A DNA stretch of 23,847 nt, taken from positions 1-23,847 of IMG/VR virus record IMGVR_UViG_3300009376_000084; one strand, given 5' to 3'. Both the position numbers and the translations under genes were made by a program. Below are positions 3,423 to 21,184 of the stretch, in pieces. The notes below the pieces were generated by a model. That model was not told the DNA's origin. It did not search any database and was given only the letters and a program-made list of their open reading frames with translations. How positions within the stretch are numbered: the first letter of the stretch is position 1; each line of letters begins with the position of its first letter. Origin of the DNA: a virus.

Positions 3423-3629
3423 ATGATCTGGCTGCTCATGGTGATAACCCTTAATCTTTCCACGACCCCGATACAGATCCAGTATGGGGAAGTGATAGAA
3501 ACGTTTCAGACCGAACATGAGTGTATCACCCGGCAAGCTAAATTTTTCAACGATGCTAAACGGGAAAATCGCCCCATCCCCGCCAATTTCAATCTGGGTT
3601 GTGTTCCCCTTAAAAGGAGTATAATGTAA
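3423..3629 (+). CDS. Small exported or anchored phage protein, 68 aa
   Basis: The N-terminal MIWLLMVITLNLS is a short hydrophobic segment suited to membrane insertion or export. The rest is polar, with Cys at residues 34 and 60 and a C-terminal motif PIPANFNLGCVPLKR familiar from small phage proteins in this position. The charged region before the hydrophobic stretch and a lipobox are both missing, so a spanin call is not supported. The start directly follows the previous stop, and the TAA overlaps the next ATG (TAATG). Confidence 0.65.
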   Translation: MIWLLMVITLNLSTTPIQIQYGEVIETFQTEHECITRQAKFFNDAKRENRPIPANFNLGCVPLKRSIM

Positions 3630-3877
3630 TGAGTTTGGTTTACCCTTGGCAAAAAAAATTCTACAAAAGACAACGCCCTTCAAAAGAAAAGATAAAGAAA
3701 TTTGAAGAATTTCTTAAGATTTATAAAAAGCATAAAAAACGGGAAAGGGATAAAAAACAACTGGAAGAGGCGATAAAAAATAATCCGGATGTTTGGGATG
3801 CTAAAAAATTTGAAGAGATGGAACGCGAGAAGAAGAAAAGGAAACGAGATGTGAAACAACCTAAAGGGAGTATCTGA
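3629..3877 (+). CDS. Lys/Arg-rich small protein, 82 aa
   Basis: An unrecognised 82-aa protein dominated by Lys, Arg and Glu, with long predicted helix or coiled coil (residues 17-72) and basic clusters such as KKHKKRERDKK and REKKKRKRDVK. No hydrophobic core is evident, so it is likely extended or helical on a partner, and binding to DNA or RNA is plausible from charge alone. Its start overlaps the previous stop (TAATG) and its stop overlaps the next start (TGATG), so it is translated as part of a chain. It belongs to a series of very basic small proteins in this module. Confidence 0.65.
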   Translation: MSLVYPWQKKFYKRQRPSKEKIKKFEEFLKIYKKHKKRERDKKQLEEAIKNNPDVWDAKKFEEMEREKKKRKRDVKQPKGSI

Positions 3878-4044
3878 TGCCTATCAAATATGTGAATGGG
3901 AAAAAAATACATCTCCCATACCCCAAGAAAAGAAAACGAAAACGGAAAAGCCCGAGCAAGACTTTACGGAAAAGGAAAAGGCTGAAGAAGTCCAAGGCTA
4001 CTTTATACAGCGAGTTCAAGAAAAAACTAAAACGGAAAAAATAA
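3877..4044 (+). CDS. Extremely basic 55-aa protein
   Basis: The ATG at 3877 shares a base with the preceding TGA. The 55 codons read MPIKYVNGKKIHLPYPKKRK, then almost only Lys, Arg and Ser, ending in KKKLKRKK. About half the residues are Lys or Arg and very few are acidic, a composition like protamines or histone tails. The N-terminal 15 residues look more structured (IKYVNGKKIHLPYP). Its position directly before terL, joined by overlap to another basic protein, suggests nucleic-acid neutralisation or head contents, but no family is recognised. The continuous chain of start/stop junctions supports it being real. Confidence 0.6.
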   Translation: MPIKYVNGKKIHLPYPKKRKRKRKSPSKTLRKRKRLKKSKATLYSEFKKKLKRKK

Positions 4045-4056
4045 AAAGGCGAATAT

Positions 4057-5649
4057 ATGACGGATCTTAACGCGCTACTGGAACAGTATGCCGATCTTCC
4101 TCCTATGCAGAAAGCAGAGATCGACCAACTGGTTCGGCAAGACATTCTGGACAAACCGTGGCGACCCCTGATTAATGTCGATAACCCCGAAATTATAACA
4201 CCGCAGCAACAGGCTTATGAATCCAAGGCGGATATCCTGTTATTCGGAGGCGCAGCCGGTGGGGGGAAATCATCACTTTTGATAGGTCTGGCTCTAACGG
4301 CACACCAACGATCTGTCATATACCGAAGAGAGGTAAAACAACTTGGACCCATCGAAGAAGAGATTATACGTATACGGAAAACACGGCAAGGATTCAACGG
4401 TCAATTACATCGTTTTGATCTTGGGAAAAACAGGGCTATTCGCCTTGGGGGGATGCAGTATGCAGGAGATGAAGTTGCTTACCAAGGTGATCCCAGAGAC
4501 CTCATTTGTTTCGATGAATTAACACAATTCCTAGAATCCCAGTTTAGATACGTCACCACATGGAACAGATCGGCAGACCCCGCACAGCGCTGTCGGATTA
4601 TATGTGCCACGAATCCGCCGACAAGCGCGGAGGGTCAATGGGTTGTAGGTTACTGGGCGCCGTGGCTGGATAAGGAGCATCCTAATCCAGCGAGGCCGGG
4701 GGAGTTGCGCTGGTTTATAAGTGACGAAGAAGGTGAAGATACTGAAGTTGAAAGTTCCGATCCCATCTGGCAAGACGGCGATTGGGTCGTACCACGTTCG
4801 AGAACTTTTATTCCCTCCTCTGTTGACGATAATCCTTTCTTAATAAATTCGGGATATAAGGCTGCACTTCAGGCATTGCCCGAACCGTTGAGATCCCAGA
4901 TGCTAATGGGTGATTTTAACGCGGGGATGCAAGACGACCCGTGGCAAGTCATCCCGACAGAATGGGTGGAACGGGCTATGGAGCGGTGGACCTCGGAAAA
5001 ACCATCGGGCGCCAAAATGGATTGTCTGGGGGTTGATCCAGCAAGAGGGGGGAAAGATGATTTTGTTTTAACTCCGCGATACGGAAACTGGTTCGGTGAA
5101 CAGATTGTCAAAAGAGGGCAGATGACTCCCGACGGACCAACGGGTGCTGCAATCTGTACATCTTACGTCAGGCATGGATCGCCCATCATGCTCGACATTA
5201 TAGGGGGAGCCGGGGCATCGATCTATGATCACCTTAAAACTAACGGGGTCAATGTTCACGCTGTGGATGGTCGTAATACAAGTCATGGAAGAGATCTCTC
5301 TGGCTCCCTCGGCTTTTTTAACAAGAGAAGTGAGAACTGGTGGCGGATGCGGGAAGCCCTAGATCCCGAAGGAGACGAGCGAATCGCGTTGCCTCCTGAC
5401 AGGGAATTGAAATCGGATCTCTGCGCTCCTAAATGGCAGTTGACTAACGGAGGGATTCAAGTTGAAGGAAAGTCTTCCGAATGCAAGGACGGGTTCGGGG
5501 ATCTGAAAAAGAGATTGGGACGATCTCCCGGCAAGGGAGACTCCTGTGTTTACGCATTACTGGAAGCCAAAAAACATGGAGGAAGAATTCATGCAACCCC
5601 ACCAAGATCAAATTCACGCTACAACCCGCATCGAGTCTGGAGAAAATGA
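4057..5649 (+). CDS. terL: Terminase large subunit (ATPase and nuclease)
   Basis: A 530-aa motor that pumps DNA into the prohead and cuts the concatemer. The ATPase domain has Walker A GGAAGGGKS (residues 64-72), Walker B LICFDEL (149-155) with catalytic acid E154, and the coupling motif ICATNPP (182-188). The RNase H-like nuclease domain follows, with metal-binding candidates D327 in LGVDPARGGKDD, D380 in MLDIIGG and D495 in GDSCVYAL. Length and order fit phage large terminases in full. An AAGGCG ribosome site lies before the ATG. It docks on the portal encoded at 10765. No sign of breakage. Confidence 0.96.
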   Translation: MTDLNALLEQYADLPPMQKAEIDQLVRQDILDKPWRPLINVDNPEIITPQQQAYESKADILLFGGAAGGGKSSLLIGLALTAHQRSVIYRREVKQLGPIEEEIIRIRKTRQGFNGQLHRFDLGKNRAIRLGGMQYAGDEVAYQGDPRDLICFDELTQFLESQFRYVTTWNRSADPAQRCRIICATNPPTSAEGQWVVGYWAPWLDKEHPNPARPGELRWFISDEEGEDTEVESSDPIWQDGDWVVPRSRTFIPSSVDDNPFLINSGYKAALQALPEPLRSQMLMGDFNAGMQDDPWQVIPTEWVERAMERWTSEKPSGAKMDCLGVDPARGGKDDFVLTPRYGNWFGEQIVKRGQMTPDGPTGAAICTSYVRHGSPIMLDIIGGAGASIYDHLKTNGVNVHAVDGRNTSHGRDLSGSLGFFNKRSENWWRMREALDPEGDERIALPPDRELKSDLCAPKWQLTNGGIQVEGKSSECKDGFGDLKKRLGRSPGKGDSCVYALLEAKKHGGRIHATPPRSNSRYNPHRVWRK

Positions 5650-5659
5650 GGATGTAAAA

Positions 5660-5878
5660 ATGCAAGTAGACGGACACAACGATGCTATTATCGGCATGGG
5701 AAACAGTTTCGGTAGAGGCAATGTTTTGATATACAGTGTCGATAAAATACTTAAAAAGCTGATGAAACGCGACGGTATGACTGAAGAGGAAGCTATGGAA
5801 TTTTTCAGCTTTAATATAGCGGGATCATACAACGGTCCGGGGATGCCTATATTTCTTTTCGAGTATCACGATGAGTGA
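5660..5878 (+). CDS. Conserved small phage protein, 72 aa
   Basis: The ATG at 5660 is preferred. The frame is open further back (ATG at 5546), but that part overlaps the end of terL, and a GAGG lies 6-9 nt before 5660. The 72-aa protein has the layout DAIIGMGNSFGRGNVLIYSV, then a helix, then GMTEEEAMEFFSFNIAG and GMPIFLFEYH. This GMT-x-EEA-x-x-FF-x-FN pattern is widely seen in small phage proteins of unknown function (recognised from memory). It is probably a compact alpha/beta protein in the cytoplasm. Its stop overlaps the next start. Confidence 0.7.
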   Translation: MQVDGHNDAIIGMGNSFGRGNVLIYSVDKILKKLMKRDGMTEEEAMEFFSFNIAGSYNGPGMPIFLFEYHDE

Positions 5879-6050
5879 TAATCAATACGAACCAACAGTA
5901 GAAGAGAAAAGAAACGGGTGGACAAGAAGTACTCTAAAGGCGTATATTCTAGGCAGGGAGAAAGAACAATCCCAAAATATACTCAAGAAAAAAGTGGTTC
6001 GACCAATCGAACAGAATCATAAATACAGACCTCATAAGTGGAGAAGCTGA
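5871..6050 (+). CDS. Small conserved-looking protein, 59 aa
   Basis: A 59-codon gene starting inside the last codons of its neighbour (ATG 5871, previous stop 5876-5878). The sequence begins MSDNQYEPTVEEKRNGWTRS and ends HKYRPHKWRS. The arrangement Y-x-P-T-x-E-E, GWT, REKEQ and a C-terminal Y-R-P-x-x-W resembles short hypothetical proteins next to terminase genes in other podovirus-like phages. The net charge is positive and the middle is helical. Function is unknown. Its TGA is one base before the next ATG, and a GGAG inside its end serves that gene. Confidence 0.65.
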   Translation: MSDNQYEPTVEEKRNGWTRSTLKAYILGREKEQSQNILKKKVVRPIEQNHKYRPHKWRS

Positions 6051-6051
6051 T

Positions 6052-6375
6052 ATGGGTGGGATGAAACCGCCGGGACAGGGCGAAGGAGCAATTAACACTT
6101 ATCTTAGGAAGCAATACTTAGAACCATATGAAGCAAAACGCAAAGCGACCGCTAAAGTTGGCGAAGCAAAGGTAAGAAAAGAACCGCTGAAAAATATTCC
6201 TGACAAGAAAATCATAAAACGGGGGAAAGATTATCGTTCCCGAATTACTTCCAGAATTCAGACTTCCGGTGTCACCAAACGTCCTAAAGCATCACGGGCG
6301 AATTTAGGAAGTCGCGTTGCCGCGTTACTCAAACCGAAAACAGACAAGCAGAAAACAGAGGATAAACTTGGATGA
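6052..6375 (+). CDS. Basic small protein, 107 aa, C-terminal DKLG
   Basis: An unrecognised 107-aa protein rich in Lys and Arg. It starts MGGMKPPGQGEGAINTYLRK and has a basic middle (KKIIKRGKDYRSRITSRI). The end, TDKQKTEDKLG, has the same last residues as the two polyproline proteins near the portal (NTKLG, SDKLG). A GGAG about 9 nt before the ATG is a good ribosome site. The stop overlaps the next start (ATGA). It is probably a virion or nucleic-acid-associated protein by neighbourhood, but that is inference only. Confidence 0.65.
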   Translation: MGGMKPPGQGEGAINTYLRKQYLEPYEAKRKATAKVGEAKVRKEPLKNIPDKKIIKRGKDYRSRITSRIQTSGVTKRPKASRANLGSRVAALLKPKTDKQKTEDKLG

Positions 6376-6647
6376 TCCCCTTCGGCCCTCTAATCCCGTT
6401 GTTGACCCGAGTCGGGGCTACATTAATGGCTCGCCTTCTGGCTAAAAAAGCCGCCCGTAAAAAAATACTGAACGATGCGGGTCTACAGAAGAAGGTAAAA
6501 AAACTAGCGGAGAAAGCGCTGAAAAAGGAAAAGAAAAACGAACAGATGGAAAATGAACTCCCTAAATGGGCGAAGGACATAGCCGCCAGAGAAGAGCAAG
6601 CCATAAAAGATAAATTAAAAGGCGACGCCAAGCGGAGAAGGAATTAA
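6372..6647 (+). CDS. Helical basic small protein, 91 aa
   Basis: A 91-aa protein. Residues 1-24 (MIPFGPLIPLLTRVGATLMA onward) are hydrophobic or amphipathic and could insert in a membrane or pack in a bundle. The rest is a long Lys/Glu helix, probably coiled coil (about 25-65), with a terminal KRRRN. An amphipathic helix followed by a charged coiled coil is a layout seen in small proteins carried in or acting on the virion, but no family is recognised. The ATGA overlap with the gene before and TAATG overlap with the 1072-aa gene after suggest coupled translation. Confidence 0.65.
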   Translation: MIPFGPLIPLLTRVGATLMARLLAKKAARKKILNDAGLQKKVKKLAEKALKKEKKNEQMENELPKWAKDIAAREEQAIKDKLKGDAKRRRN

Positions 6648-9600
6648 TGGGAGGACAGAACCCACAAGATATGTTCAAGCGCGGGATGCCGATGTTAGGC
6701 CAAGTTCCGTCGCGCGTCGAGGAAGGCCCCCTTGGGCAGCTTCATAAGGACACCACTGAACTCATTCAATCCACGCAGAAAGACCAATCCCAGCAGCAAA
6801 TAGATTCCATTATCACTCCCGACGAACAATCATTTATAGACGCCCAGAAAGTCGATGAACAAGTTGCTAAACAGAAGGAGTATCAGGATGCGGGGTTTGC
6901 TTATCCTCTAGACGAATCGATTACAGACAAAGAGTATCTTGTGGGGAAACTATACGAAGCAGGAGAGGAATGGTCGGTTGATGAACCCCTCCATGATTTG
7001 CAAGCAGGGTACAGATTTGTGATGATGGAGAAATACAAAAAGCATCTTGAGAATATCCAGCAACCCGACAATATAGACATACCCGGCTGGAAGAAGATGA
7101 CTCTTGCGGCCTTACAAGATGATCTTGACTACTCCATATCTCACCATAGCGGTCTTAATCCGGTACCACCCGTCACCTCGCCTCCTCCCCCGTCGATTGC
7201 GAAAGGCGATACAACAGATAAGGTATTTTTAGTACAACAATTGAGAAAGCTCAACCCAGAACAATTCGGAACTTGGGCCGACGACGAAATGGAAGAGATC
7301 TCTCTTGCTAGTTTACAAAAACAGTTTAGAAATAAAATGACTGCAAAACTAGACGATTACTGGTCAGGAACAAAATACCCCGGCGATAAAAATTATTTTG
7401 ACGATCTGCCTCTAGATGAATTAATGGCGGAATATGACACGATGGTTTTTGATCAATCAGAACTCGGAGGCGGGGAACTGAAAACGGCTTCAAAGCATAG
7501 TTATGAGACTTCTTTACATAAACTGAAAGACAAATTCACCAACCCCATCGACAAACCAGAAGAAATACACCCCGTAAGAAAATTCGTACAATCACAACGA
7601 GATCGAGGGGCGAAGATATTTGAGATCGGTCGAGGGTTGGGTATATTAGAAAAACTTAAGAAACTCCGCATGGTGATAAAAAACCGCAAAGCGGCCCAGA
7701 AGACCCAGATCGTGGAACAAGAACTGGCTATCGCGGAAGCAGCCAGACAACAACGGATATTAGATCAAGACTATGACCCCGAGGATCGTCAAGTTTCGAT
7801 TGGGGGGAGTTTCCCTGTTTACGAAACAGAAGAGAAGACGTTGGCGGAACTTGAAGAAGACGCGAGGGAACGCGGACCAGACGCCGCTTGGGATGATGAC
7901 ATTTACCCCTCTGGGCCAAAAGGTCTTCGCGGACCTATGCCGGTCCCCCATACAGAGGAAGAAAATAGGTTAACCAGACATATCCTTAATAGCCCGCTGA
8001 TGAGAAAAATACTGGGACCCGACGGTCTGACTAAAGATCACCCAGTGAGAAAAGTTCTTCGGGACATACATACACACGGAAAAAGATTTAATAGAATGAC
8101 CGGAAAAAGAAGACGAACTACGGAGCAACGGGCGATAAATGAACTTTCCGAAACGCAGAAAGTATATTTAATCGAAGCACTGAGGCAACGAGAAGCATCG
8201 GGTATACCGGAATCGAGTGTTGATATTAAAGACAAGCGCATTTCAAACTTTATAGATGACCTAGCAGCTATACGGGGTATGGCAACTGCTGACCAACGGG
8301 AACAGGAACGCGTAAAGGGGGCAAAAGAAAGAGGGGAAGACATAAAATATCGCGTACCGAAACTGACCGAAAAAGGTGAACCTGTGGGGAAGTGGAGAAG
8401 CCCGAAAGCTTTTTCACGGTACCCGAAAGTCGTCTGGAAACACGGTAAATTTCAACCTTTAGATCATTCTGGAACAGGCGCCGTTTATCACGGACCCGTA
8501 GAAAAAGAGACAATAGATCTGGAGAAGTATCCTACGGGGAAGAAGATGATAGGTGTGAAATACGCGAATGCTGCTGCCCAAGCGTTTAGGTGGTCTTCGG
8601 AGGCTTTAAATCTTCCAGAGGAGTTTCAAGAGAGGCACGGTATATCTTGGGACGAGTTCACAAGTCAATACAAGGACATGAAAAAAGGATTGGGTGATCT
8701 CGAATTTAACAAGATAAACGAAAAAAACGCGGTCAAAAGATTAAAATCCAGTATGGACAAGTTGGTAGAAGTAGGGAACAAACTTTGGTCGGACCCAAAA
8801 AACCAAGAAAAATACGGTGCAGCATGGGGGGATCAATGGAAAAAAATGCCTACCATATCCAAGATTATGAAGAAAGACCCTAAACAGCGGGCTTATTATT
8901 ATAAGCAGTTGCACTTTCTTTCGGGAGGATCAGAGGAGATAGCTAATCACCAGTTAAAACTGATGGGTTTTGATAATCAAACAGGCGAGTATATAGCTAA
9001 AATGTCCCCCGATAGAGCCGCGATGGTCGCCGAGTATGAAGATGCTGTTAATGCACTTAGGGGGGATGTCGTGGCCCAGATGGCTATTTTTCAAAACCCG
9101 GTTGAGGGGAGAGATCCTTACATACCAGAAACGGTCATTAAAAGGAAACTGCCGGATACAATATCCGTACAAGATTATGAGGATTTCCAAAAAATGATAA
9201 ATGAATTTGATTATAAGTCTCTCGGGGATATGGTAGACCCGCAGTTAGCTAGACGGATTCTTTTGACTAATCTGGAATTAGCTTACATGGATCTCCCCGG
9301 TTTTTCTACCCCGACTGGTCTACGGAGTCTTTTTATTTTAAAAGAAGAAGAGAAGCTTGACAGAACCTTGACACCCGACGAAGTATCCGAATTAAAAAAA
9401 CGTAAGGTGCTAACAAGAAATAAAAAAATAAAAATAAGCGAATTAAATGATCTTAAGAGTTCTACTTTCGTAGAGGGTCCGTTAAGACACATGGCATCAT
9501 TACCCTCATGGGGTGAATTTGAAAGGAGAACGGATAAAACTGACGAGGACGATAATGTAATCGGAAAGTATCACGCGTACCAAGAAACTTTATTGGCGTT

Positions 9601-9865
9601 AGGGTTTACGGGTTCAAGAGTAAGTGACGAAGCGGGAACTTCAACGGCTATGCTCGATATGAAGGCTATAAAAGTCCCGTGGGGGAATTTTCCGGGTAAG
9701 ATAACTGCCAGTACGCTTCAAGCATTATTAGCGGGCGGCCTGATCACGACCGCCCAGATAAAACGATTGCAGAAAGAGAACAGGCCAGAACGAAGAACGC
9801 GGGAAAGAAAAAAACAATACAGAAATAGGAGCAAATATGGAAGAAGAACAAGAAACATCAGATGA
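6647..9865 (+). CDS. Large unknown protein, 1072 aa
   Basis: The largest gene in the window, intact, with no recognised enzyme motif. It has a Pro-rich linker near residue 170-185 (PPPPSIAK) and a Lys/Arg-rich C-terminus (RRTRERKKQYRNRSKYGRRT). It shows an internal weak repeat starting TDKEYLV (92), TDKVFLV (190) and TQKVYLI (503), each followed by a helix. The motif HPVRK occurs at 308 and 465. Charge is high throughout and there is no signal or membrane segment. It lies between terL and portal, where podovirus-like phages rarely carry so large a gene. A head-internal or ejected protein is plausible from size, charge and site (inference). A tail-fibre role is less likely. Confidence 0.9.
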   Translation: MGGQNPQDMFKRGMPMLGQVPSRVEEGPLGQLHKDTTELIQSTQKDQSQQQIDSIITPDEQSFIDAQKVDEQVAKQKEYQDAGFAYPLDESITDKEYLVGKLYEAGEEWSVDEPLHDLQAGYRFVMMEKYKKHLENIQQPDNIDIPGWKKMTLAALQDDLDYSISHHSGLNPVPPVTSPPPPSIAKGDTTDKVFLVQQLRKLNPEQFGTWADDEMEEISLASLQKQFRNKMTAKLDDYWSGTKYPGDKNYFDDLPLDELMAEYDTMVFDQSELGGGELKTASKHSYETSLHKLKDKFTNPIDKPEEIHPVRKFVQSQRDRGAKIFEIGRGLGILEKLKKLRMVIKNRKAAQKTQIVEQELAIAEAARQQRILDQDYDPEDRQVSIGGSFPVYETEEKTLAELEEDARERGPDAAWDDDIYPSGPKGLRGPMPVPHTEEENRLTRHILNSPLMRKILGPDGLTKDHPVRKVLRDIHTHGKRFNRMTGKRRRTTEQRAINELSETQKVYLIEALRQREASGIPESSVDIKDKRISNFIDDLAAIRGMATADQREQERVKGAKERGEDIKYRVPKLTEKGEPVGKWRSPKAFSRYPKVVWKHGKFQPLDHSGTGAVYHGPVEKETIDLEKYPTGKKMIGVKYANAAAQAFRWSSEALNLPEEFQERHGISWDEFTSQYKDMKKGLGDLEFNKINEKNAVKRLKSSMDKLVEVGNKLWSDPKNQEKYGAAWGDQWKKMPTISKIMKKDPKQRAYYYKQLHFLSGGSEEIANHQLKLMGFDNQTGEYIAKMSPDRAAMVAEYEDAVNALRGDVVAQMAIFQNPVEGRDPYIPETVIKRKLPDTISVQDYEDFQKMINEFDYKSLGDMVDPQLARRILLTNLELAYMDLPGFSTPTGLRSLFILKEEEKLDRTLTPDEVSELKKRKVLTRNKKIKISELNDLKSSTFVEGPLRHMASLPSWGEFERRTDKTDEDDNVIGKYHAYQETLLALGFTGSRVSDEAGTSTAMLDMKAIKVPWGNFPGKITASTLQALLAGGLITTAQIKRLQKENRPERRTRERKKQYRNRSKYGRRTRNIR

Positions 9866-9914
9866 AGACGGCGGGATCGTAAAACGACCGACCGCTGGAT
9901 CGGGAGATGAATGA
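9837..9914 (+). CDS. Possible 25-aa acidic peptide
   Basis: An AGGAG Shine-Dalgarno (9827-9831) lies 5 nt before an ATG that opens 25 codons (MEEEQETSDEDGGIVKRPTA and five more), in a different frame inside the end of the 1072-aa gene. Its TGA overlaps the ATG of the next gene (ATGA). The strong ribosome site and perfect junction suggest a translated leader coupling the two genes, or a real acidic micropeptide beside very basic neighbours. It could still be chance. Confidence 0.45.
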   Translation: MEEEQETSDEDGGIVKRPTAGSGDE

Positions 9915-10276
9915 AAACAATAGTCAGCTTCCGAGGTTACGGAAACCACCCGTTGAAGTGGATGTTGAAAGACGGGTTCAAACATACGGTTATTGCAATA
10001 CAGACAGGGGATTACTGGGTTGAAATAGATTACGCAGTAGGCGTTCCGATCACTCATGTTATTGCCCATAAGGATTATGATCTGTTAAACTATTATGTGA
10101 GAGAGGGATATACCGTTGTAAAAAGGGACCAAGAAATAAACAAACAGTTTAAATTTAATCTGTTTCGTGGTAATATTTTTGTGGCAAACTGTGTCGGCTT
10201 GACGAAAGCGTTATTAGGTTTAAATAGTTGGGCGATTACCCCATATCAACTTTATAAGAGGTTACAGAAACCATGA
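9911..10276 (+). CDS. Probable permuted papain-fold (NlpC/P60-like) hydrolase
   Basis: A 121-aa protein. The C-terminal block NCVGLTKALLGLNSWAITPY then QLYKRL is familiar from phage proteins encoded near the portal and resembles the nucleophile helix of papain-like hydrolases (C94). H25 in FKHTVIAI followed by a strand with E39/D40 would give the permuted His-before-Cys order of LRAT/YiiX-type enzymes. If active, it could cleave a peptide, amide or ester bond during assembly or entry. The catalytic assignment is inferred from residue pattern only. It has an ATGA overlap with the acidic micropeptide and 4-bp overlap with the next gene. Confidence 0.6.
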   Translation: MKTIVSFRGYGNHPLKWMLKDGFKHTVIAIQTGDYWVEIDYAVGVPITHVIAHKDYDLLNYYVREGYTVVKRDQEINKQFKFNLFRGNIFVANCVGLTKALLGLNSWAITPYQLYKRLQKP

Positions 10277-10515
10277 GTATTTTTCCCGGATTTGGCAGCC
10301 CAAGCGCTCCGGCTCCTCCGCCGCCTCCGCCTCCGCCTCCGCCTCCGATAGAAAGAACTGATCCATCTATCGCAGAAGCGAAGAAGAAATTGGAAGCCAG
10401 TGAAGCAGCACGGAGAGGACGAAGAGGTTCCATGCTGACTCAAGCAGGACAAACTGTTACAGGCGGGAGTATATTAAGACCTTCCGCTGATGATGATAAC
10501 ACTAAACTAGGATAA
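10273..10515 (+). CDS. Polyproline small protein A, 80 aa
   Basis: It starts MSIFPGFGSP, then has eleven consecutive Pro (15-25), a charged helix, the motif GRRGSMLTQAG and the C-terminus DDDNTKLG. The layout of Pro tract, R-R-x-R-R-G-S-x-L-T and a Gly end is typical of short proteins encoded just before the portal in podovirus-like phages (recognised by pattern, function unknown). The Pro run is coded by CCTCCG hexamer repeats and would need elongation factor P for efficient translation (established for polyproline). It is followed by a paralogue. Confidence 0.75.
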   Translation: MSIFPGFGSPSAPAPPPPPPPPPPPIERTDPSIAEAKKKLEASEAARRGRRGSMLTQAGQTVTGGSILRPSADDDNTKLG

Positions 10516-10520
10516 CTATT

Positions 10521-10760
10521 ATGTCTATATTCCCCGGTGGGGGTTCCCCGCCAAGACCCGCACCGCCTCCACCTCCGCCTCCTCCACCGCCTCCACCTCC
10601 GCCTCCTCCCGAGCCGGAAGGAAAACGCGTGGATAAACAGAAAGCGAAATACGATATTGCCCGTCGGGCTGGACGCCGTGGGTCTACGTTAACAAGAACG
10701 GATACTGGCTTGGGTGATGTTTCCAGAACGGAAGCTGGCGGAAGTGATAAATTAGGGTAA
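10521..10760 (+). CDS. Polyproline small protein B, 79 aa
   Basis: A tandem paralogue of the gene just upstream. It shares MSIFPG at the start, the Pro tract (here sixteen residues, 15-30), the RRGSxLT motif (RRGSTLTR) and a C-terminus SDKLG, but the middle differs. An AGGAT lies before the ATG. Codons for the shared start mostly differ between the two, so the duplication is old or under protein-level selection. It lies 4 bp before the portal gene. A role at the portal vertex or in assembly is guessed from position only. Confidence 0.75.
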   Translation: MSIFPGGGSPPRPAPPPPPPPPPPPPPPPPEPEGKRVDKQKAKYDIARRAGRRGSTLTRTDTGLGDVSRTEAGGSDKLG

Positions 10761-10764
10761 TAAA

Positions 10765-12453
10765 ATGCCAGAAGAGAGAAACGACGAGAAGCGTGTTCTC
10801 GAACATATAAAAAGGCAGAAAGCTGCCCAGAACAGGCGATCCCAGTTTGAACATCATTGGGACGACCTGACGCGGGTATTACTGCCGCGCCGTCAGGGGT
10901 TTATGACAACGACCCAAGACGGGGAGCAAAGAGTCGAGGATATTTACGATGGAACTCCGATGCAGGGAGCCAGAAGTCTGGCGAACACGGTAGGTGCCAT
11001 GATCCGACCAGAAGGTCAGGACCTGACTATAATCCGTACGGAGAATGAGGATCTGGCGAAAATCGGGGAAGTACAGGATTGGCTCGGTCGCGCAACGGAA
11101 AACCTCAATGAGGCGATTCGTGACCCGAGGGCCAGATTTCGACAGGCAACCGGGGAGGTTGACCTCGACCTTGTGGTATTGGGTACGGGAATACTGTATC
11201 TGGGAATGGGCATGGATCAGGATCATCTCCTGTTTCAATCGGTTCATCTGAAGGACGGATTTCCCCTATTTTGCGACGAGGGAAAACCAGTCGGGATGTA
11301 CCGAACCAAGAAGATGTATCTCTGGCAAGCAGAACTGATGTTCGGGTTGGAGAACCTGTCACGGGAATCCAAGGAGAAAATTTTAAACAAAAAACAAGAT
11401 GATAAAATAGATTTGCTGTATTCCGTACAGAAGCGAAAAGGAGAAAAGAAAACCGAACCTATTTTTTCCAAGGATCTACCTTACGAAGAACTCTGGATGG
11501 AAGTTCAATCTAAACACATTATACGGGAAAAGGGATTTCACGAATTTCCTTTTATTATCCCACGATGGGACACATCTTCTGGGGAAGAATACGGAAGATC
11601 TCCGGGAATGATTGCCCTTCCGGATTCCAATACATTACAGTCTATGGGAGAAACAATCTTGGTTGCCGGCCAGCGTGTTGCTGATCCTCCCCTGATGGCT
11701 CCCAATGACGGAGCGTTTTCTGAGGTCAACACTTTCCCCGGAGGGATGAGTTACTATGACGTCGAAACCGCTTCCCAAGTTGGGGGCAATCCGTTCTTTC
11801 CTTTAATCTCGGGTGCTAACTTACCTGTTACCCGTGATATGCAGACGGATATACGGAATCAGGTAGCGGCGGCATTTTTCAAGAATATATTGAATCTTCC
11901 GCAGAGTGGACCACAGATGACAGCTACGGAAGTTATTCAACGGAAAGACGAATTTATAAGGGAAGTCGGCCCCGTATTCGGAAGATTTGAAACCGATTAC
12001 AACCACCCGATTGCGGAACGGTCTTTCAAGATCATGTTGCGGAATGATGCGTTTGATGAAATCCCGGAATCACTACAGGGACAGAATGTCAAGTTTGAAT
12101 TTGATCTCCCTGTTAATAAAATTAAGAAACAGGTTGAAGCTGCTTCCGCAACCCAGTGGGCGATGGAAGTAATGCAGATGGCACAAGTAGCCCCCGAGGC
12201 AAGACATATGGTCAATGTAGATGCCCTTGCCAGATTCAAGGCCGATGCGATGGCACTTCCGCATGATATAGTTAATACACGGGAAGAAGTACAAGCCAAG
12301 TTACAAGCAGAACAACAGCAGATGGCACAACAGCAACAAATGATGATGATGCAGCAAGGGGCTGAGATTGCAGACAAGGGCGCGGGTGCGTTGAAGAAAG
12401 CAGGAGAACATATAAGGGGTATGGAACAACAGGCCGAAGGAGCGCCCGCATGA
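10765..12453 (+). CDS. Portal (head-to-tail connecting protein)
   Basis: A 562-aa portal subunit. Twelve copies would form the ring through which DNA enters and leaves. It matches the head-to-tail connecting family of podoviruses: an N-terminal helical start with FEHHWDDLTRVLLPRRQGF (28-46), then DGTPMQGARSLANTVGAMI, the EYGRSPG block near 275, and the wing/crown region with GPQMTATEVIQRKDEF near 380. The C-terminal tail is Gln/Met-rich coiled coil (about 512-535) and is likely the barrel extension inside the head. Length is normal. The stop overlaps the next ATG (ATGA). It works with terL and the tail adaptor at 17330. Confidence 0.93.
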   Translation: MPEERNDEKRVLEHIKRQKAAQNRRSQFEHHWDDLTRVLLPRRQGFMTTTQDGEQRVEDIYDGTPMQGARSLANTVGAMIRPEGQDLTIIRTENEDLAKIGEVQDWLGRATENLNEAIRDPRARFRQATGEVDLDLVVLGTGILYLGMGMDQDHLLFQSVHLKDGFPLFCDEGKPVGMYRTKKMYLWQAELMFGLENLSRESKEKILNKKQDDKIDLLYSVQKRKGEKKTEPIFSKDLPYEELWMEVQSKHIIREKGFHEFPFIIPRWDTSSGEEYGRSPGMIALPDSNTLQSMGETILVAGQRVADPPLMAPNDGAFSEVNTFPGGMSYYDVETASQVGGNPFFPLISGANLPVTRDMQTDIRNQVAAAFFKNILNLPQSGPQMTATEVIQRKDEFIREVGPVFGRFETDYNHPIAERSFKIMLRNDAFDEIPESLQGQNVKFEFDLPVNKIKKQVEAASATQWAMEVMQMAQVAPEARHMVNVDALARFKADAMALPHDIVNTREEVQAKLQAEQQQMAQQQQMMMMQQGAEIADKGAGALKKAGEHIRGMEQQAEGAPA

Positions 12454-12599
12454 AGTGGCAGGGATTAAAGTCCCCGGTGATTACGCCGGAAGAAGAAGAG
12501 AATACAAGGCGGCTACAGGAGTTTTTTAAATGGGTCACCCGACTTACGGGAGATCCTAAATGGTGGATAGAAGTAGACGCTTTTATAAAGGAAAAATAA
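12450..12599 (+). CDS. Small Trp-rich protein, 49 aa
   Basis: The ATG at 12450 overlaps the portal TGA by four bases (ATGA). The 49 codons start MKWQGLKSPVITPEEEENTR and contain a helix ending in KWVTRLTGDPKWWIEVDAF. The four Trp in 49 residues are notable. The junction and a stop two bases before the next gene support translation by coupling to the portal. No family is recognised. Small proteins here in related phages are often unassigned. Confidence 0.55.
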   Translation: MKWQGLKSPVITPEEEENTRRLQEFFKWVTRLTGDPKWWIEVDAFIKEK

Positions 12600-12600
12600 A

Positions 12601-12936
12601 ATGCCGCAGAAACGAAAAAGGCCCCCTAGTATAAGCACGTTATCTAAAGTTAAAGATTTAGAAGGTAAAGTGTGGAATAGAACATATAGAGAAGAGATAG
12701 CAAAAGGAAAGAGTGACGGCACAGCTAAAAGCATAGCCAATAAAAAAGCTAAACAAGCTAGATTAAACGCACAGGTAGCTGAAGATATAGCTATAGGCGC
12801 CCGCAATGAAGAGGGTGTTTTCGTAACATCTTTCCCACTCGGGTTGAACCAGTTTAAAAATAAAACTGAAATGGAAAAAGCTAGAAAGATTAAAAAACTA
12901 GAAATAAGAAAAAGAAAACGAGACAAAGATAAATAA
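12601..12936 (+). CDS. Lys-rich small protein, 111 aa
   Basis: An unrecognised 111-aa protein that begins MPQKRKRPPS and ends KLEIRKRKRDKDK, with basic tails at both ends around a helical middle. The central part (GARNEEGVFVTSFPLGLNQF) is less charged and may fold. It is AT-rich, with AAA and AGA codons prominent compared with the portal gene, hinting at a separate history. The stop abuts the next ATG. Part of the basic series in this module. Confidence 0.6.
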   Translation: MPQKRKRPPSISTLSKVKDLEGKVWNRTYREEIAKGKSDGTAKSIANKKAKQARLNAQVAEDIAIGARNEEGVFVTSFPLGLNQFKNKTEMEKARKIKKLEIRKRKRDKDK

Positions 12937-12975
12937 ATGGCAAGTTCAATAGATAACGCTTTCATAACCCAGTAC
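12937..12975 (+). other. Copy of capsid N-terminal peptide
   Basis: Thirteen codons encode MASSIDNAFITQY, against MSTTINNAFITQY at 14885-14923. In the shared NAFITQY all seven codons differ, each at the third base only. The similarity is therefore at protein level and is not a recent DNA duplication. Confidence 0.6.
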
Positions 12976-13251
12976 GGAAGGAGAAAACCCAAAATGGCAC
13001 AGAAACGAACCAGAGTTAAAAAAGTGGGGGTTATAGTTGTCCCTAAAGAAAAGAAAAAAGAAAATAAAACTGAGTTAAAAAAGCGAAAAGACAAAGCAAG
13101 AGAGCTAAATTTATCACTTAAAGCGACAGAAGAATATATGATGACAGGTAAATTACCGAAAAAGAAAAAAGAAAAGAAAAAAAGCCCGGTTCAAACTTTA
13201 TTATATAAAGGACGTCCGATAGGAAGCCGAAAACGGAGCGTATCTGTTTAA
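12937..13251 (+). CDS. Basic protein with capsid-like N-terminus, 104 aa
   Basis: From ATG 12937 the protein starts MASSIDNAFITQYGRRKPK, where 9 of the first 13 residues equal the capsid start MSTTINNAFITQY. The rest is Lys-rich (KKEKKKENKTELKKRKDK, KLPKKKKEKKKS) with no folded domain evident. An in-frame ATG at 12994 has a better ribosome site (GGAAGGAG, 12976-12983), giving an 85-aa version without the capsid-like part. Start 12937 abuts the previous stop and has no clear Shine-Dalgarno, so translation would rely on coupling. Both forms may be made. Its stop overlaps the next start (TAATG). Function is unknown. Confidence 0.6.
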   Translation: MASSIDNAFITQYGRRKPKMAQKRTRVKKVGVIVVPKEKKKENKTELKKRKDKARELNLSLKATEEYMMTGKLPKKKKEKKKSPVQTLLYKGRPIGSRKRSVSV

Positions 13252-13577
13252 TGCCGAGAAAAAAGGTAAACAAGGCGACTGATCCCGAGGAACTGTTCGA
13301 TCAGTTTAAAAAGATAACCCAGTACCAGAGCGATTTGGAGAGGTACAAGGATTTCCGTGAATTATTTCTCGGTTCTGATTTAGGGAAACGGGTGTTCAAT
13401 GAAATACTGGGTATGGGATATATGGCAAATGACACGACGAAATTTAACAAGTACGGGGTTGACCCGAATGCAACATTAATATCAACTGGGGAACGGAAAC
13501 TGGCTTTGATGATTCATAAGCTGGTTATGGTTGAACCACCCGCTCCTCCACCACCAACACAAAAATCGAGGCGATAA
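13251..13577 (+). CDS. Bbp19-like phage protein, 108 aa
   Basis: The core YKDFRELFLGSDLGKRVFNE, then FNKYGVDPNATLISTGERKL and ALMIHKLV (about residues 37-93), fits the small Bbp19-like family first named in Bordetella phage BPP-1, which has R-x-F-x-x-x-F-x-x-x-x-G-x-x-V and a C-terminal G-x-R-x-x-x-x-x-I block (memory-based). Function is unknown; the genes usually sit between portal and scaffold/capsid, as here. It has basic ends (MPRKKVNK; QKSRR) and a short Pro-rich stretch PPAPPPP near the end, recalling the polyproline pair upstream. Confidence 0.65.
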   Translation: MPRKKVNKATDPEELFDQFKKITQYQSDLERYKDFRELFLGSDLGKRVFNEILGMGYMANDTTKFNKYGVDPNATLISTGERKLALMIHKLVMVEPPAPPPPTQKSRR

Positions 13578-13580
13578 TTT

Positions 13581-14471
13581 ATGGCAGACGAAGAAGCAGT
13601 AGAGACAGAAGAAGCGGTTGAAGAAACCGAAGCGACCGAAACGGAAACTACGGCTCCCGAAGAACAGGAGTCGGTAGAGATCGAATCTTGGCGTGACCTG
13701 ATCGAAGACGAGAAGTTACAGAAACACGCTGAACGGTTTACCAGTGTGGATGCACTGGTACAGGCGAATCTGGAGTCGAGACAGAAACTGTCCAAGGCGA
13801 TTGTTCCCCCGGGAAAAGATTCGGACGAAGAAGATGTTACTGCTTATCGTGAAGCGTTGGGGGTTCCGAAGGATGTAGACGGGTACGATTTTCCATTGCC
13901 GGAAGGGGTTGAACGCACGGATGCCATGATGGATTCCGAGGACCATTGGGCTAATATATTCATCGACAATAATATTCCGAAGGAAACGGCTGATGTTCTG
14001 ATACAGGAATTTCGGGGTGAAATCGAAAAGATGATGGCCCAGAAAACAGAAACGGATCAAACCTACACTCGGGAGAGTGAAGAAACAATGCGGAAGGAAT
14101 GGGCCGAAGATTATGACAAGAATCTCATTTTCGCGTCACGGGCGAGTGAACAACTTCTCGGGGATGATTTCGAGGACGCCCGTTACATAGAAACCTCCGA
14201 CGGGAAGTTTGTTCTGGATCACCCAATTCTGATTCGTATGTTTGCCAAGCTCGGCCGGGATATGGGAGAAGGTGCATTAGGCAGTGTGGCTACAGAAGGT
14301 GAAAAAGAAACCTTATTAGAACAGGCCAACTCCTATCGTGACAAACGTCTCGAAGCCCATGCGAAAGGAAATAACGCTGAAGCCCGCCGATGGGATGAAA
14401 AAGAACGTCTCATCCTTGAAAAGATTCACGGCAGCGGGCCGATTGTAGGAGCAGATACAAGGACTTCATAA
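13581..14471 (+). CDS. Scaffold / capsid assembly protein
   Basis: A 296-aa protein directly upstream of the capsid unit. The N-terminal 38 residues are almost only Glu, Thr, Ala and Val (very acidic). Then come DALVQANLESRQKLSKAI and LGVPKDVDGYDFPLPEGV, a motif common in phage scaffolds, followed by long helices up to the C-terminus. Scaffolds guide capsid-protein co-assembly and then leave the head. Size, charge, helicity and position agree with T7 gp9-type proteins, although sequence similarity to T7 is not claimed. A GAGGCG ribosome site lies before the ATG. The acidic tail could bind the basic small proteins encoded nearby (inference). Confidence 0.85.
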   Translation: MADEEAVETEEAVEETEATETETTAPEEQESVEIESWRDLIEDEKLQKHAERFTSVDALVQANLESRQKLSKAIVPPGKDSDEEDVTAYREALGVPKDVDGYDFPLPEGVERTDAMMDSEDHWANIFIDNNIPKETADVLIQEFRGEIEKMMAQKTETDQTYTRESEETMRKEWAEDYDKNLIFASRASEQLLGDDFEDARYIETSDGKFVLDHPILIRMFAKLGRDMGEGALGSVATEGEKETLLEQANSYRDKRLEAHAKGNNAEARRWDEKERLILEKIHGSGPIVGADTRTS

Positions 14472-14472
14472 T

Positions 14473-14676
14473 ATGGAGAAACAGCGGTCTGGAAAAACTA
14501 GGTACGAAAAACAGGGTTATTATTCATTTTTCGCGGGCGGGCCAAAGGTATCCAAAGAAGAATACGAGAAAGGGATAAACGACGCAATTGATGCGTATGT
14601 AAAAAAACAAGAGGATAAAAAAAAGAAGCGAAAGCAGAAACGAAAACGAAAAGGAAAAGAAAAAAGAAAAAGATAA
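14473..14676 (+). CDS. Small protein with Lys/Arg tail, 67 aa
   Basis: AAGGA lies about 10 nt before the ATG, which follows the scaffold stop by one base. Residues 1-43 look foldable (GYYSFFAGGPKVSKEEYEKG then INDAIDAYVKK). The last 24 residues are nearly all Lys or Arg (DKKKKRKQKRKRKGKEKRKR). A neutral head plus polybasic tail is the clearest case of the pattern seen in this module. The capsid promoter starts four bases after its stop. Nucleic-acid or acidic-protein binding is plausible. No family is recognised. Confidence 0.65.
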   Translation: MEKQRSGKTRYEKQGYYSFFAGGPKVSKEEYEKGINDAIDAYVKKQEDKKKKRKQKRKRKGKEKRKR

Positions 14677-14680
14677 AGAA

Positions 14681-14709
14681 TTGACAAAATATACAAGTAG
14701 TTGTATATT
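14681..14709 (+). promoter_or_regulatory. Strong sigma70-type promoter for the capsid unit
   Basis: TTGACA (14681-14686), a 17-bp spacer and TATATT (14704-14709) are nearly ideal. Transcription would start near 14716, giving a 169-nt leader before the capsid gene. It is the best promoter match seen in the window and explains how the capsid could be made in excess of the upstream genes. Confidence 0.8.
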
Positions 14710-14711
14710 TT
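14686..14711. promoter_or_regulatory. Operator-like dyad over the capsid promoter
   Basis: Arms AAAATATACAA (14686-14696) and TTGTATATTTT (14701-14711) are perfect 11-bp inverted repeats around GTAG. The dyad fills the spacer and the -10 box of the promoter, so a bound dimer would block polymerase. It is too AT-rich for a good terminator. A repressor site is likely; the regulator is not identified here. Confidence 0.6.
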
Positions 14712-14715
14712 TCAT

Positions 14716-14884
14716 AGGCGGCTTCCCTTATGGCCCCGCCGATAAGTTTTACAACATTACCGATGCCCCGTTAGAAAGAAGACACGGCCTCCGTAAAGGA
14801 CTTCCCGAATTCTGAATTCAACACGGCTTCCAGAGGAAATGTAATTGCAGTTAACATTTACTTTAATTTTTTTGGAGGCTTTAA
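14716..14884 (+). promoter_or_regulatory. Capsid gene leader with strong ribosome site
   Basis: There is no gene in this leader. GGAGG (14874-14878) lies 6 nt before the capsid ATG. GCCTCC (14787-14792) is an exact complement of GGAGGC (14874-14879) and could fold onto the ribosome site. A related GGCTTCC occurs at 14825-14831. A short GGCGG/CCGCC stem (14717-14740) stands at the 5' end. The leader is long for a phage structural gene and may control translation or mRNA stability. Confidence 0.4.
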
Positions 14885-15784
14885 ATGTCTACCACTATTA
14901 ACAATGCGTTTATCACGCAATATGAGCGTGATGTCCACGACGTCTTCCAGAGGGATGGTTCCGTATTGAAACCAACCGTCCGGTTTAAATCAGACGTTGT
15001 CGGATCTGTAGCGACGTTCCAGAAAATCGGGACTGGCGTAGCTACAACTAAAGCGCGACACGGCACTATTACCCCGATGAACCAAACTCATACGGCTATC
15101 TCCACGACCCTAGCTGATTTCTATGCTGGCGACTGGGTTGATAAACTGGATGAGGCAAAAATAAATATCGACGAACGTATGGCTATCGCCCGTGGCGGTG
15201 CTAAAGCGTTAGGCCGAAAAGTCGATTCTCAGATTTTTACGACTCTGGATTCTACATCTCAATCAACTGTCTCTTTTACGGTATCTTCATCTGCCGCAGT
15301 AAGAAACGGTTTATTGGGTATGATCCAAGCCTTAATCGCAAATGATGCTTATGATCCCGGAAATATGTACGGTGTCATGTCCCCCAAATTATGGGCGATG
15401 GCGTCAACGATTCAAGAGTTCGCATCTTCTGATTATGTCGGCGTAGACGGACTTCCTTACAAGGGCGGCGCTGCGGTTGGTAATTACAAACGCTGGGCGC
15501 AGGTTTTGTGGACAGTTCATTCTGGAAATCCGGGTGTAGCAACTTCTACATCCAAAGTTTTCGTCTGGAACAAGACGGCTGTTGGTTATGCCGCAGGTAA
15601 AACCCCGGCGAATCTTGCAGGTACAATGTCTGGTGAGACTTCCATAGGCGCAGATATTACGTGGCATGGTGATCGTGCAGCACACTTTGTTAACCACGCT
15701 ATGTCTGGGAATTCTGTTATGATTGATGACGGTGGAGTAATCGAGGGCAATCTCGATGACACTGCTGCTATCCCAACTTCATAA
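14885..15784 (+). CDS. Major capsid protein
   Basis: A 299-aa protein forming the icosahedral shell. It starts MSTTINNAFITQYERDVHDV and contains VVGSVATFQKIGTGVATTKA, then LDEAKINIDERMAIARGGAK with a long helix (spine-helix-like), and ends with strands around TWHGDRAAHFVNHAMSG. This matches a capsid family common in podovirus-like phages, expected to have the HK97 fold (family knowledge). No protease-cleaved delta domain is evident, consistent with a separate scaffold gene upstream. Its own strong promoter and GGAGG ribosome site fit very high expression. Codons are less AT-rich than those of the basic genes. Confidence 0.9.
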   Translation: MSTTINNAFITQYERDVHDVFQRDGSVLKPTVRFKSDVVGSVATFQKIGTGVATTKARHGTITPMNQTHTAISTTLADFYAGDWVDKLDEAKINIDERMAIARGGAKALGRKVDSQIFTTLDSTSQSTVSFTVSSSAAVRNGLLGMIQALIANDAYDPGNMYGVMSPKLWAMASTIQEFASSDYVGVDGLPYKGGAAVGNYKRWAQVLWTVHSGNPGVATSTSKVFVWNKTAVGYAAGKTPANLAGTMSGETSIGADITWHGDRAAHFVNHAMSGNSVMIDDGGVIEGNLDDTAAIPTS

Positions 15785-15797
15785 GGGGGGATAATTC

Positions 15798-16391
15798 ATG
15801 GCTTACTCAGCAAGCAATTTATATAATCACGGTACCGGGTATCCCGGTAACGCTTACTATACCTATAAGTCTGACACGGACACTCGTGAAACTGTTATGA
15901 CTGCGGGGTACTTTAACAACTCGGACGATGATCTGAATCTGACTGCCGATGACACGATTTTTGTTGTCGGGGATCAGGGCGGGTACACCCTTCGGGTAGA
16001 TGCTGTTTCATCTGGTTCTGTTGCAACCGAGTTGGGAACGGGTTCCCCGATTATTCTTTCAACTCATATGTTGGCAATTTCTACGACTACAAGCGCATGG
16101 GTAGTATCTCCATGTGACGGCATTATCAGCCGTATGTGGACTGTTATTCACGGCGCTTGCGGAACCGATACTACTATGGGTCTGGAAATCGGAGGAACCA
16201 ACGTAACAGATGGTTCTGACGCCGATATCATAACGATTACCGCTTCGGGTTCTGCGGCAGGTAATGTGGATACTGGGACTTGCGACGGAGCTAACGCAAT
16301 AACCGAAGGAGCAGCTATCGAAGTCACTTGTGGCGGCGAAGGCAGTACGGCTTCTGAAGCAACGTGTTTAGTTGAAGTTTTACCAGCGTAA
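15798..16391 (+). CDS. Probable head decoration protein, 197 aa
   Basis: A GGGGGG ribosome site precedes the ATG. The protein is all-beta in appearance. An N-terminal domain (about 20-75) contains TAGYFNNSDDDLNLTADDTI. A C-terminal jelly-roll-like domain (about 90-197) has repeated V, T, G and S residues and SAWVVSPCDGIISRMWTVIH, the start of a fold often seen in phage decoration or head-fibre proteins. It has several Cys (C105, C120 and more). It follows the capsid gene and shares its promoter, as decoration genes usually do. The N-domain recurs alone in the next gene. Role inferred from fold and place. Confidence 0.6.
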   Translation: MAYSASNLYNHGTGYPGNAYYTYKSDTDTRETVMTAGYFNNSDDDLNLTADDTIFVVGDQGGYTLRVDAVSSGSVATELGTGSPIILSTHMLAISTTTSAWVVSPCDGIISRMWTVIHGACGTDTTMGLEIGGTNVTDGSDADIITITASGSAAGNVDTGTCDGANAITEGAAIEVTCGGEGSTASEATCLVEVLPA

Positions 16392-16393
16392 AT

Positions 16394-16425
16394 TAATCGG
16401 AGTGCTTCGGCACTCCGGTTTTCTT
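16394..16425 (+). terminator. Intrinsic terminator after the capsid unit
   Basis: CGGAGTGC (16398-16405), a UUCG tetraloop and GCACTCCG (16410-16417) form a perfect 8-bp GC-rich stem followed by GTTTTCTTT. This is a textbook rho-independent terminator. It would end or thin transcription between the 197-aa gene and the 96-aa gene. Confidence 0.9.
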
Positions 16426-16448
16426 TAATCAATAACGAGGATATCGAT

Positions 16449-16739
16449 ATGGCTTTTGACACATCGGAATTGGCGTTGATTTCTCACGTTAATGGTTACA
16501 ATTATTACCGCTATGATACTACGGATGCTCATACTACCGTAGATGCCGCCGGGTATTTCAACAATGATGACGATGACCAGAAAATGGTAGTCGGCGATAT
16601 CATCTATGTTGTTGTCTGGTCTACAGCGGTGAGAACTGGTACTATCTCCACATACGGTACGCATATAGTTAATGCAGTATCGTCAGGAGCCGTAGATATC
16701 ACTAATGTAACCACTGGCACTATGACCGACTCTGATTAA
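16449..16739 (+). CDS. Small beta-rich paralogue of the decoration N-domain, 96 aa
   Basis: The ribosome site GAGG lies before the ATG. The protein contains YYRYDTTDAHTTVDAAGYFN then NDDDDQKMVVGDIIYVV, matching the N-terminal domain of the 197-aa neighbour (YYTYKSDTDT..., TAGYFNN, DDTIFVV) and ending AVSSGAV like its VSSGSV. It is about half the length and lacks the C-terminal domain. It is isolated between a terminator and a long hairpin, so its dose is probably set separately. Possibly a minor decoration or fibre-base subunit; otherwise unknown. Confidence 0.65.
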   Translation: MAFDTSELALISHVNGYNYYRYDTTDAHTTVDAAGYFNNDDDDQKMVVGDIIYVVVWSTAVRTGTISTYGTHIVNAVSSGAVDITNVTTGTMTDSD

Positions 16740-20743: not shown

Positions 20744-21184
20744 ATGCGTAGATACGCGAACTGGTCTGACAGACTGATTTGTTTTTTAGCAGATAGGGAT
20801 AGGACCCCTTTAAAATGGGGGAAGTCAGACTGTTCTTTATTTGCCTGTGATGCTATAAATGCCATGAACGGTTCTGACCCCGGACACTGGTTTAGAGAAA
20901 GATATGAAACTAAAAAACAAGCGTTTAAATTATTAAAACAGTTTGCAGGAGGGGGTCTTACAGAAGCCGTAGAAAAAATCGCCAAGGAAATGGGCTACCC
21001 TGAAATACAACCTGAAAAAGCAAATTCTGGGGACATGGTTTTAATAGATGTTGAAAATATTCATCCGGATGCCTACGGTTTAACCGCCGCAATTATGGTA
21101 TGTCCGGAAGTAGCCATTGCACAAGGTAAAGATAACTTGGTGTATGTTGACGATCCTGATATAAAAAGGGCATGGGCCATATGA
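20744..21184 (+). CDS. DUF6950-type papain-fold-like protein
   Basis: A 146-aa protein with LICFLADRDRTPLKWGKSDC (residues 11-30), where WG-x-x-DC is the nucleophile motif of NlpC/P60-like proteins. FACDAINAMNGSDPGHWFRE, ANSGDMVLIDV and the end IKRAWAI match the DUF6950 family of phage tail-region proteins (by memory). The catalytic His normally in H-V-G or G-V strands is not obvious (GLTAAIMV), so it may be inactive or use another residue. In the tail module it could help local cell-wall opening or be structural. The stop overlaps the next start (ATGA). Confidence 0.75.
   Translation: MRRYANWSDRLICFLADRDRTPLKWGKSDCSLFACDAINAMNGSDPGHWFRERYETKKQAFKLLKQFAGGGLTEAVEKIAKEMGYPEIQPEKANSGDMVLIDVENIHPDAYGLTAAIMVCPEVAIAQGKDNLVYVDDPDIKRAWAI

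Follow-up and report, generated by a model that had tools for sequence, protein, structure and literature searches.

Exchangeable small basic proteins encoded at fixed positions among the head genes of uncultured marine short-tailed phages: candidate internal head cargo

Between the terminase genes and the MCP gene of the phage analysed here lie seven small ORFs, B1–B7, that encode strongly basic proteins (55–111 aa, pI 10.1–11.7, net charge +15 to +26). These genes are under purifying selection, the basic genes of the clade occupy fixed slots with changing sequences, and one of the seven proteins, B6, carries a copy of the N-terminal arm (N-arm) of the MCP that is kept at the protein level. 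As judged from sequence, we give about an even chance (roughly 0.5) to the reading that the basic genes encode exchangeable internal head cargo, recruited through contacts with the scaffold and the MCP.

The window, i.e. the whole stretch of DNA that was analysed, comprises positions 1–23,847 of IMGVR_UViG_3300009376_000084, an IMG/VR virus record without known ends. It holds the head and tail module of a podovirus, with terS, terL, portal, scaffold, MCP, two tail proteins and an internal virion protein, the last matching phrog_418 at 21815, downstream of the tail genes. The gene at 13581 is called scaffold because of its position before the MCP gene and its acidity. The positions occupied by basic genes are termed slots A (terS–terL), B (terL–g9911), C (portal–g13251) and D (scaffold–MCP); L numbers denote loci of relatives.

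3629–3877, + strand: B1, 82 aa, net +16, pI 10.1, slot A; dN/dS 0.11 with the L029 homologue
3877–4044, + strand: B2, 55 aa, the most basic (net +26, pI 11.7), slot A; dN/dS 0.03–0.08 with the L008 and L029 homologues
6052–6375, + strand: B3, 107 aa, net +19, slot B; dN/dS 0.06 against L008
6372–6647, + strand: B4, 91 aa, net +15, slot B; dN/dS 0.21–0.37 for B4-type pairs
6647–9865, + strand: P1072, large helical accessory protein of 1072 aa, slot B; basic C-terminal tail conserved in the alignment
10273–10515, + strand: PP1, conserved poly-Pro protein 5' of the portal; N-terminus MSIFPGFG common to some B3-type proteins; weak PHROG matches
10521–10760, + strand: PP2, paralogue-like poly-Pro protein; weak PHROG matches
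10765–12453, + strand: portal (head-tail adaptor), left anchor of slot C; phrog_332, E 2e-105; tblastn matches to HTVC010P-type phages and epsilon15
12601–12936, + strand: B5, 111 aa, net +17, slot C; L005 homologue 71% identical, dN/dS 0.18
12937–13251, + strand: B6, 104 aa, net +25, slot C; residues 1–13 copy the MCP N-arm
13251–13577, + strand: g13251, small conserved protein, right anchor of slot C; phrog_528, E 1e-4; sub-threshold Bbp19-like Pfam match
13581–14471, + strand: scaffold, net -39, N-terminus very acidic; phrog_3742, E 5e-29; phrog_458, E 1e-8
14473–14676, + strand: B7, 67 aa, net +16, slot D; dN/dS 0.21 with the L005 homologue
14885–15784, + strand: MCP, predicted HK97 fold with an N-terminal helix at residues 7–24; phrog_3437; model pLDDT 80; best PDB match the LME-1 phage capsid 9eg4

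The positions and lengths of the seven ORFs among the packaging and head genes are as given in the initial annotation, and the Lys/Arg-rich tails quoted there are all present: KKKLKRKK in B2 (3877), RKRKRDKDK in B5 (12601) and RKRKGKEKRKR in B7 (14473). A Shine-Dalgarno-like sequence precedes most of the basic ORFs, and adjoining ORFs abut or overlap by a few bases. B3 ends in ...DKLG like PP1 and PP2, and some of its relatives start with MSIFPGFG as PP1 does, while B4 combines a hydrophobic N-terminus, PLIPLLTRVGA, with a C-terminal DAKRRRN segment common to other basic proteins of slots A–C. No convincing Pfam, PHROG or NCBIfam match was obtained for B1–B7, and no relatives of B3, B5 or B6 were detected in cultured phages among 50,697 phage records.

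The assignment of this phage to the T7 type in the initial annotation is not upheld. The best matches of portal and MCP are phrog_332 and phrog_3437, respectively, and do not indicate a T7-like portal or head module. By tblastn the portal matched 218 phage records, all below 60% identity, the best being HTVC010P-type pelagiphages (~32%) with epsilon15 further down (~26%); the phage is thus, on its portal relationships, of the HTVC010P/epsilon15 kind. Megablast recovered no DNA similar to the window among the 50,697 phage records. HTVC010P displays the same order of terL, small proteins, portal, small protein, scaffold and MCP, and epsilon15-like podoviruses have a homologous portal. In contrast to the window phage, the HTVC010P genes lying between head genes are not strongly basic, its sole gene between scaffold and MCP encodes a near-neutral protein of 58 aa and its scaffold is less acidic.

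Scans with portal, MCP and terminase gave 109 distinct loci on the first pass. Some 28 relatives from uncultured marine short-tailed phages have portals 66–96% identical to that of the window; the head genes are conserved across this clade (ingroup alignments of 70–96% for portal and 83–96% for MCP) and the basic genes are mostly unrecognisable between its members. Relatives of the MCP are also present in genomes of Alphaproteobacteria, which makes marine members of that class candidate hosts. Slot C, scored as basic when it held at least one ORF with a net charge per residue of at least 0.12, is basic in 28 of 29 ingroup loci against 1 of 22 outgroup loci, counts that are not independent trials, the loci sharing ancestry and some perhaps stemming from overlapping samples. 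The sole ingroup exception is apparently L063, whose portal is only 61% identical. In the outgroup this slot is usually either empty or taken up by a protein of near-neutral or slightly acidic charge that begins much like WIERAQSAEAKL. The expectation of the initial annotation that charge and gene order would be kept where sequence identity is lost is thus borne out at slot C. Ingroup occupancy of the other slots is 13/21 loci for A, 12/23 for B and 21/43 for D. Random loss among close relatives, named beforehand as an outcome that would speak against a functional set, was observed for single genes but not for slot C overall: L002, with portal and MCP 96% identical to those of the window, is without B5 and B7. 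The 95 basic proteins fall into 55–58 full-length clusters, or 33 if any local match is allowed. On these comparisons the basic genes have repeatedly received new sequences and kept their charge.

The proteins had been described as not obviously homologous, which holds for whole proteins but not for short segments. In a count that left out highly charged words, 186 low-charge six-residue words are common to different clusters, against a mean of 2.6 and a maximum of 7 for shuffled proteins. By inspection, the DAKRRRN C-terminal segment is found on proteins with differing N-termini in slots A, B and C, and further shared segments include the hydrophobic start PLIPxxTRxGA, LLYKGxP, GIxVVP, YPPPK repeats and the slot D start SHEKS. 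Replacement of the basic proteins is modular, yielding mosaics of short shared segments. A comparison of protein ends with the core proteins gave two clear shared ends, MSIFPGFG (PP1) and the MCP N-arm (B6). Apart from MCP and PP1/PP2, no core protein gave a convincing match. An end match between L028 and terS was rejected as a probable artefact.

The N-terminus of B6 follows the MCP N-arm in the same register (MASSIDNAFITQY against MSTTINNAFITQY), the MCP starting with MSTTINNAFITQYERDV and B6 with MASSIDNAFITQYGRRK. The two proteins agree at nine of their first 13 residues, giving a same-register score of 48 against a null maximum of 35. Eight of these nine, including all seven of NAFITQY, use different codons; the remaining one is the initiator Met. 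Because codons would still be in common after a recent duplication of the DNA, the identity of residues with different codons indicates that the N-arm segment of B6 is maintained by selection at the protein level. Conservation of the copied stretch is high throughout the MCP family, and in the predicted HK97-like structure the stretch corresponds to the tip and the first half of the N-terminal helix. The pattern NAFITQYGRRKP was found in only three other IMG/VR contigs, so that four loci carry the N-arm copy counting the window, and most basic proteins have other N-termini. The MCP N-terminus contacts the scaffold in P22, T7, SPP1 and 80alpha (PMC6813328; PMC9965877). By analogy, B6 would bind the scaffold as the MCP N-arm does, and the copy speaks for a connection to the assembly of scaffold or capsid.

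The very acidic N-terminus noted previously for the scaffold is confirmed, with 20 Asp/Glu among its first 50 residues. The match of phrog_458, a 'protease' family, is the scaffold gene itself. The median net charge of the scaffold is -39 in the clade versus -19 outside, and that of its first 50 residues -18 versus -7. Basic charge is correlated with scaffold charge over 58 loci (rho -0.63), but within the clade no correlation was detected (rho -0.22, p 0.34), which therefore indicates one shared evolutionary step rather than repeated covariation; scaffold acidity and basic genes may simply share one branch. The earlier suggestion that the basic proteins tether scaffold thus receives partial support, from the N-arm copy in B6 and from the more acidic scaffold of the clade. 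The same coincidence at clade level would be expected if the basic proteins were assembly cofactors that act together with the acidic scaffold in building or sizing the procapsid, leave with the scaffold and are absent from the mature virion. An N-arm copy could then compete with the MCP for scaffold, and ~87 sets of basic proteins would balance 300 scaffold copies, a copy number that is assumed. Assembly factors are, however, normally conserved, whereas the basic genes change even between phages whose portal and MCP are 96% identical, and slot D is empty in many relatives; we consider this role unlikely.

Accessory genes commonly lie in gaps of phage late operons, and the Lys/Arg-rich, hypervariable and mosaic composition of the basic proteins would also suit proteins that act late in the cytoplasm, in nucleic-acid binding or anti-defence, and whose genes simply occupy tolerated gaps in the head operon. 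Such genes are nevertheless missing from the tail and replication regions of the same genomes. In four clade genomes (G001, G002, G003 and the window), strongly basic ORFs below 250 aa account for 13 of 44 between terS and MCP and for 0 of 68 downstream (Fisher p 1.5e-6). With the MCP N-arm copy also pointing to head assembly, a purely cytoplasmic role is less likely still.

Protamine-like condensation, put forward in the initial annotation, fares worse again and is improbable on stoichiometric grounds. High positive charge that is kept despite low sequence constraint would fit bulk neutralisation of the packaged DNA, but neutralising half of a 40–52 kb genome (an assumed size) would need ~300–390 copies of each protein, i.e. 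22–28 MDa of protein for 26–34 MDa of DNA, so that the protein would weigh nearly as much as the DNA. Furthermore, the number of basic genes differs widely between relatives, and B1, B3 and B5 have conserved non-basic segments.

The basic ORFs are, on the evidence of their substitution patterns, real genes. Homologous pairs from relatives display purifying selection, with dN/dS mostly 0.03–0.37 (0.06–0.27 for B3); the higher average of B6 (0.68–0.89) arises because its divergent middle is not reliably alignable, both ends being kept. The charge is in part a consequence of A-rich DNA: full nucleotide shuffles reach the observed basicity of B1, B4, B5 and B7 in 393–935 of 2000 cases and that of B2 in none, and shuffles within codon positions reach the observed charge in only 0–21 of 1000. 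Purine enrichment at fourfold-degenerate third positions is restricted to B7, and the A-richness of the other genes therefore follows the amino acids and not a strand bias. That an A-rich, purine-loaded coding strand yields the basic ORFs as a functionless by-product, as the full shuffles of B1, B4, B5 and B7 would allow, is thus largely refuted and highly improbable, given dN/dS values well below 1, the codon-position shuffles, the unbiased fourfold sites and the conservation of the N-arm copy at the protein level.

The cargo reading has its closest parallel in the internal proteins of T4, which are basic, present in ~300 copies each, bound to the scaffold gp22 in the core, equipped with targeting peptides of 10–19 residues and variable among T4 relatives, IPI being an injected restriction inhibitor (PMC9026906). 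Similarly to IPI, IPII and IPIII (with Alt), B1–B7 are small, basic, several per genome and variable among relatives; short N-terminal segments common to otherwise different proteins exist in the window clade too, but are of several kinds and would be targeting segments at most putatively. In contrast, no sequence relation between the two groups was found, the window phage is a podovirus and not T4-type, B6 copies the coat protein itself and no cleavable targeting peptide was recognised in B1–B7. Neither a prohead protease nor a T4-type cleavage site was recognised in the head region of the record, which is a fragment. Association with the scaffold core, as in T4, is also proposed for B1–B7. 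The podovirus ejection proteins (P22 gp7/16/20, T7 gp14-16) are also internal to the virion and delivered with the DNA, but their genes lie at other positions, they have no detected similarity to B1–B7 and the window phage has its own phrog_418 protein. The arrangement was initially regarded as new for T7-type phages; basic internal head proteins are already known, albeit from T4 rather than from T7-type phages, and a search of the open-access literature found no comparable set reported from a podovirus.

As internal head cargo, the basic proteins would enter the procapsid at assembly through short segments that engage scaffold or coat, B6 being the clearest case, and electrostatic attraction by the unusually acidic scaffold would assist. 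They would then either stay in the head alongside the DNA or leave with it on ejection. Such fast turnover resembles that of cargo under selection from a changing host, as with IPI of T4. That the proteins enter the head, bind scaffold, are ejected and act against the host are steps that we infer. More tentatively, and on balance doubtful, cargo loading may be modular across the clade: basic proteins without homology to one another would be directed to the procapsid by ends captured from head proteins, among them the coat N-arm copy as an uncleaved capsid-targeting tag.

P1072 may be a large member of the same set. Its basic tail, reported in the initial annotation, is present (RRTRERKKQYRNRSKYGRRTRNIR at the C-terminal end) and kept in the aligned relatives. 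The protein evolves fast, being only 42% identical to its L002 counterpart although portal and MCP are 96% identical, and is missing from many relatives. Family searches gave no match and no recognised enzymatic or polyvalent domain, comparison with PDB sequences gave a chance-level match only, and conserved peptides recovered no relatives in IMG/VR outside known portal loci; its low-confidence model (pLDDT 48) was left out of the fold search. P1072 resembles the polyvalent proteins packaged by phages (PMC5512222) in being large, fast-evolving, accessory and encoded among head genes, but differs in having none of their recognised domains.

These genes show that a functional gene set can be recognised by its charge and its place among other genes once sequence similarity is gone. 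If the cargo reading is true, small short-tailed phages too would carry changeable internal head proteins, best known so far in large T4-like phages, with the coat protein's own arm serving as an address label. Proteins could then be loaded into phage heads by means of a compact tag, and the role of variable internal proteins after their injection could be addressed directly.

The following features lie around the major capsid (coat) protein (MCP) gene, upstream of the portal gene and in the tail region:
14680-14884, leader ahead of the MCP gene, conserved at the DNA level in 11 relatives
15798-16739, two genes in succession 3' of the MCP gene, alike in their N-terminal halves and each with a match to phrog_18004
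10273-10760, neighbouring short proteins PP1 and PP2, which contain long stretches of proline and the motif GRRGSxLT
21172-21834, phrog_2045 protein among tail genes

The conserved MCP leader contains two small hairpins that show compensatory changes, and a pairing of its GGCTTCCAG segment with the MCP Shine-Dalgarno TTTGGAGGC is predicted. Coat synthesis may be under translational control by the leader, for which Rfam returned no match. The leader starts with a promoter-like TTGACA-17-TATATT.

The gene pair is possibly a duplicated capsid-associated gene; several relatives have one matching place, which fits the shorter gene better. PP1 and PP2, both carrying the motif, are conserved upstream of the portal gene, and similar proteins are present in pelagiphage HTVC010P. 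The phrog_2045 protein presumably resembles the phage Gp37/Gp68 (DUF5131) kind.

MCP relatives with 38-66% identity (loci L124-L172) lie mostly within Alphaproteobacteria genomes, many of them Rhodospirillales-like, which suggests related prophages and Alphaproteobacteria as a possible host group.
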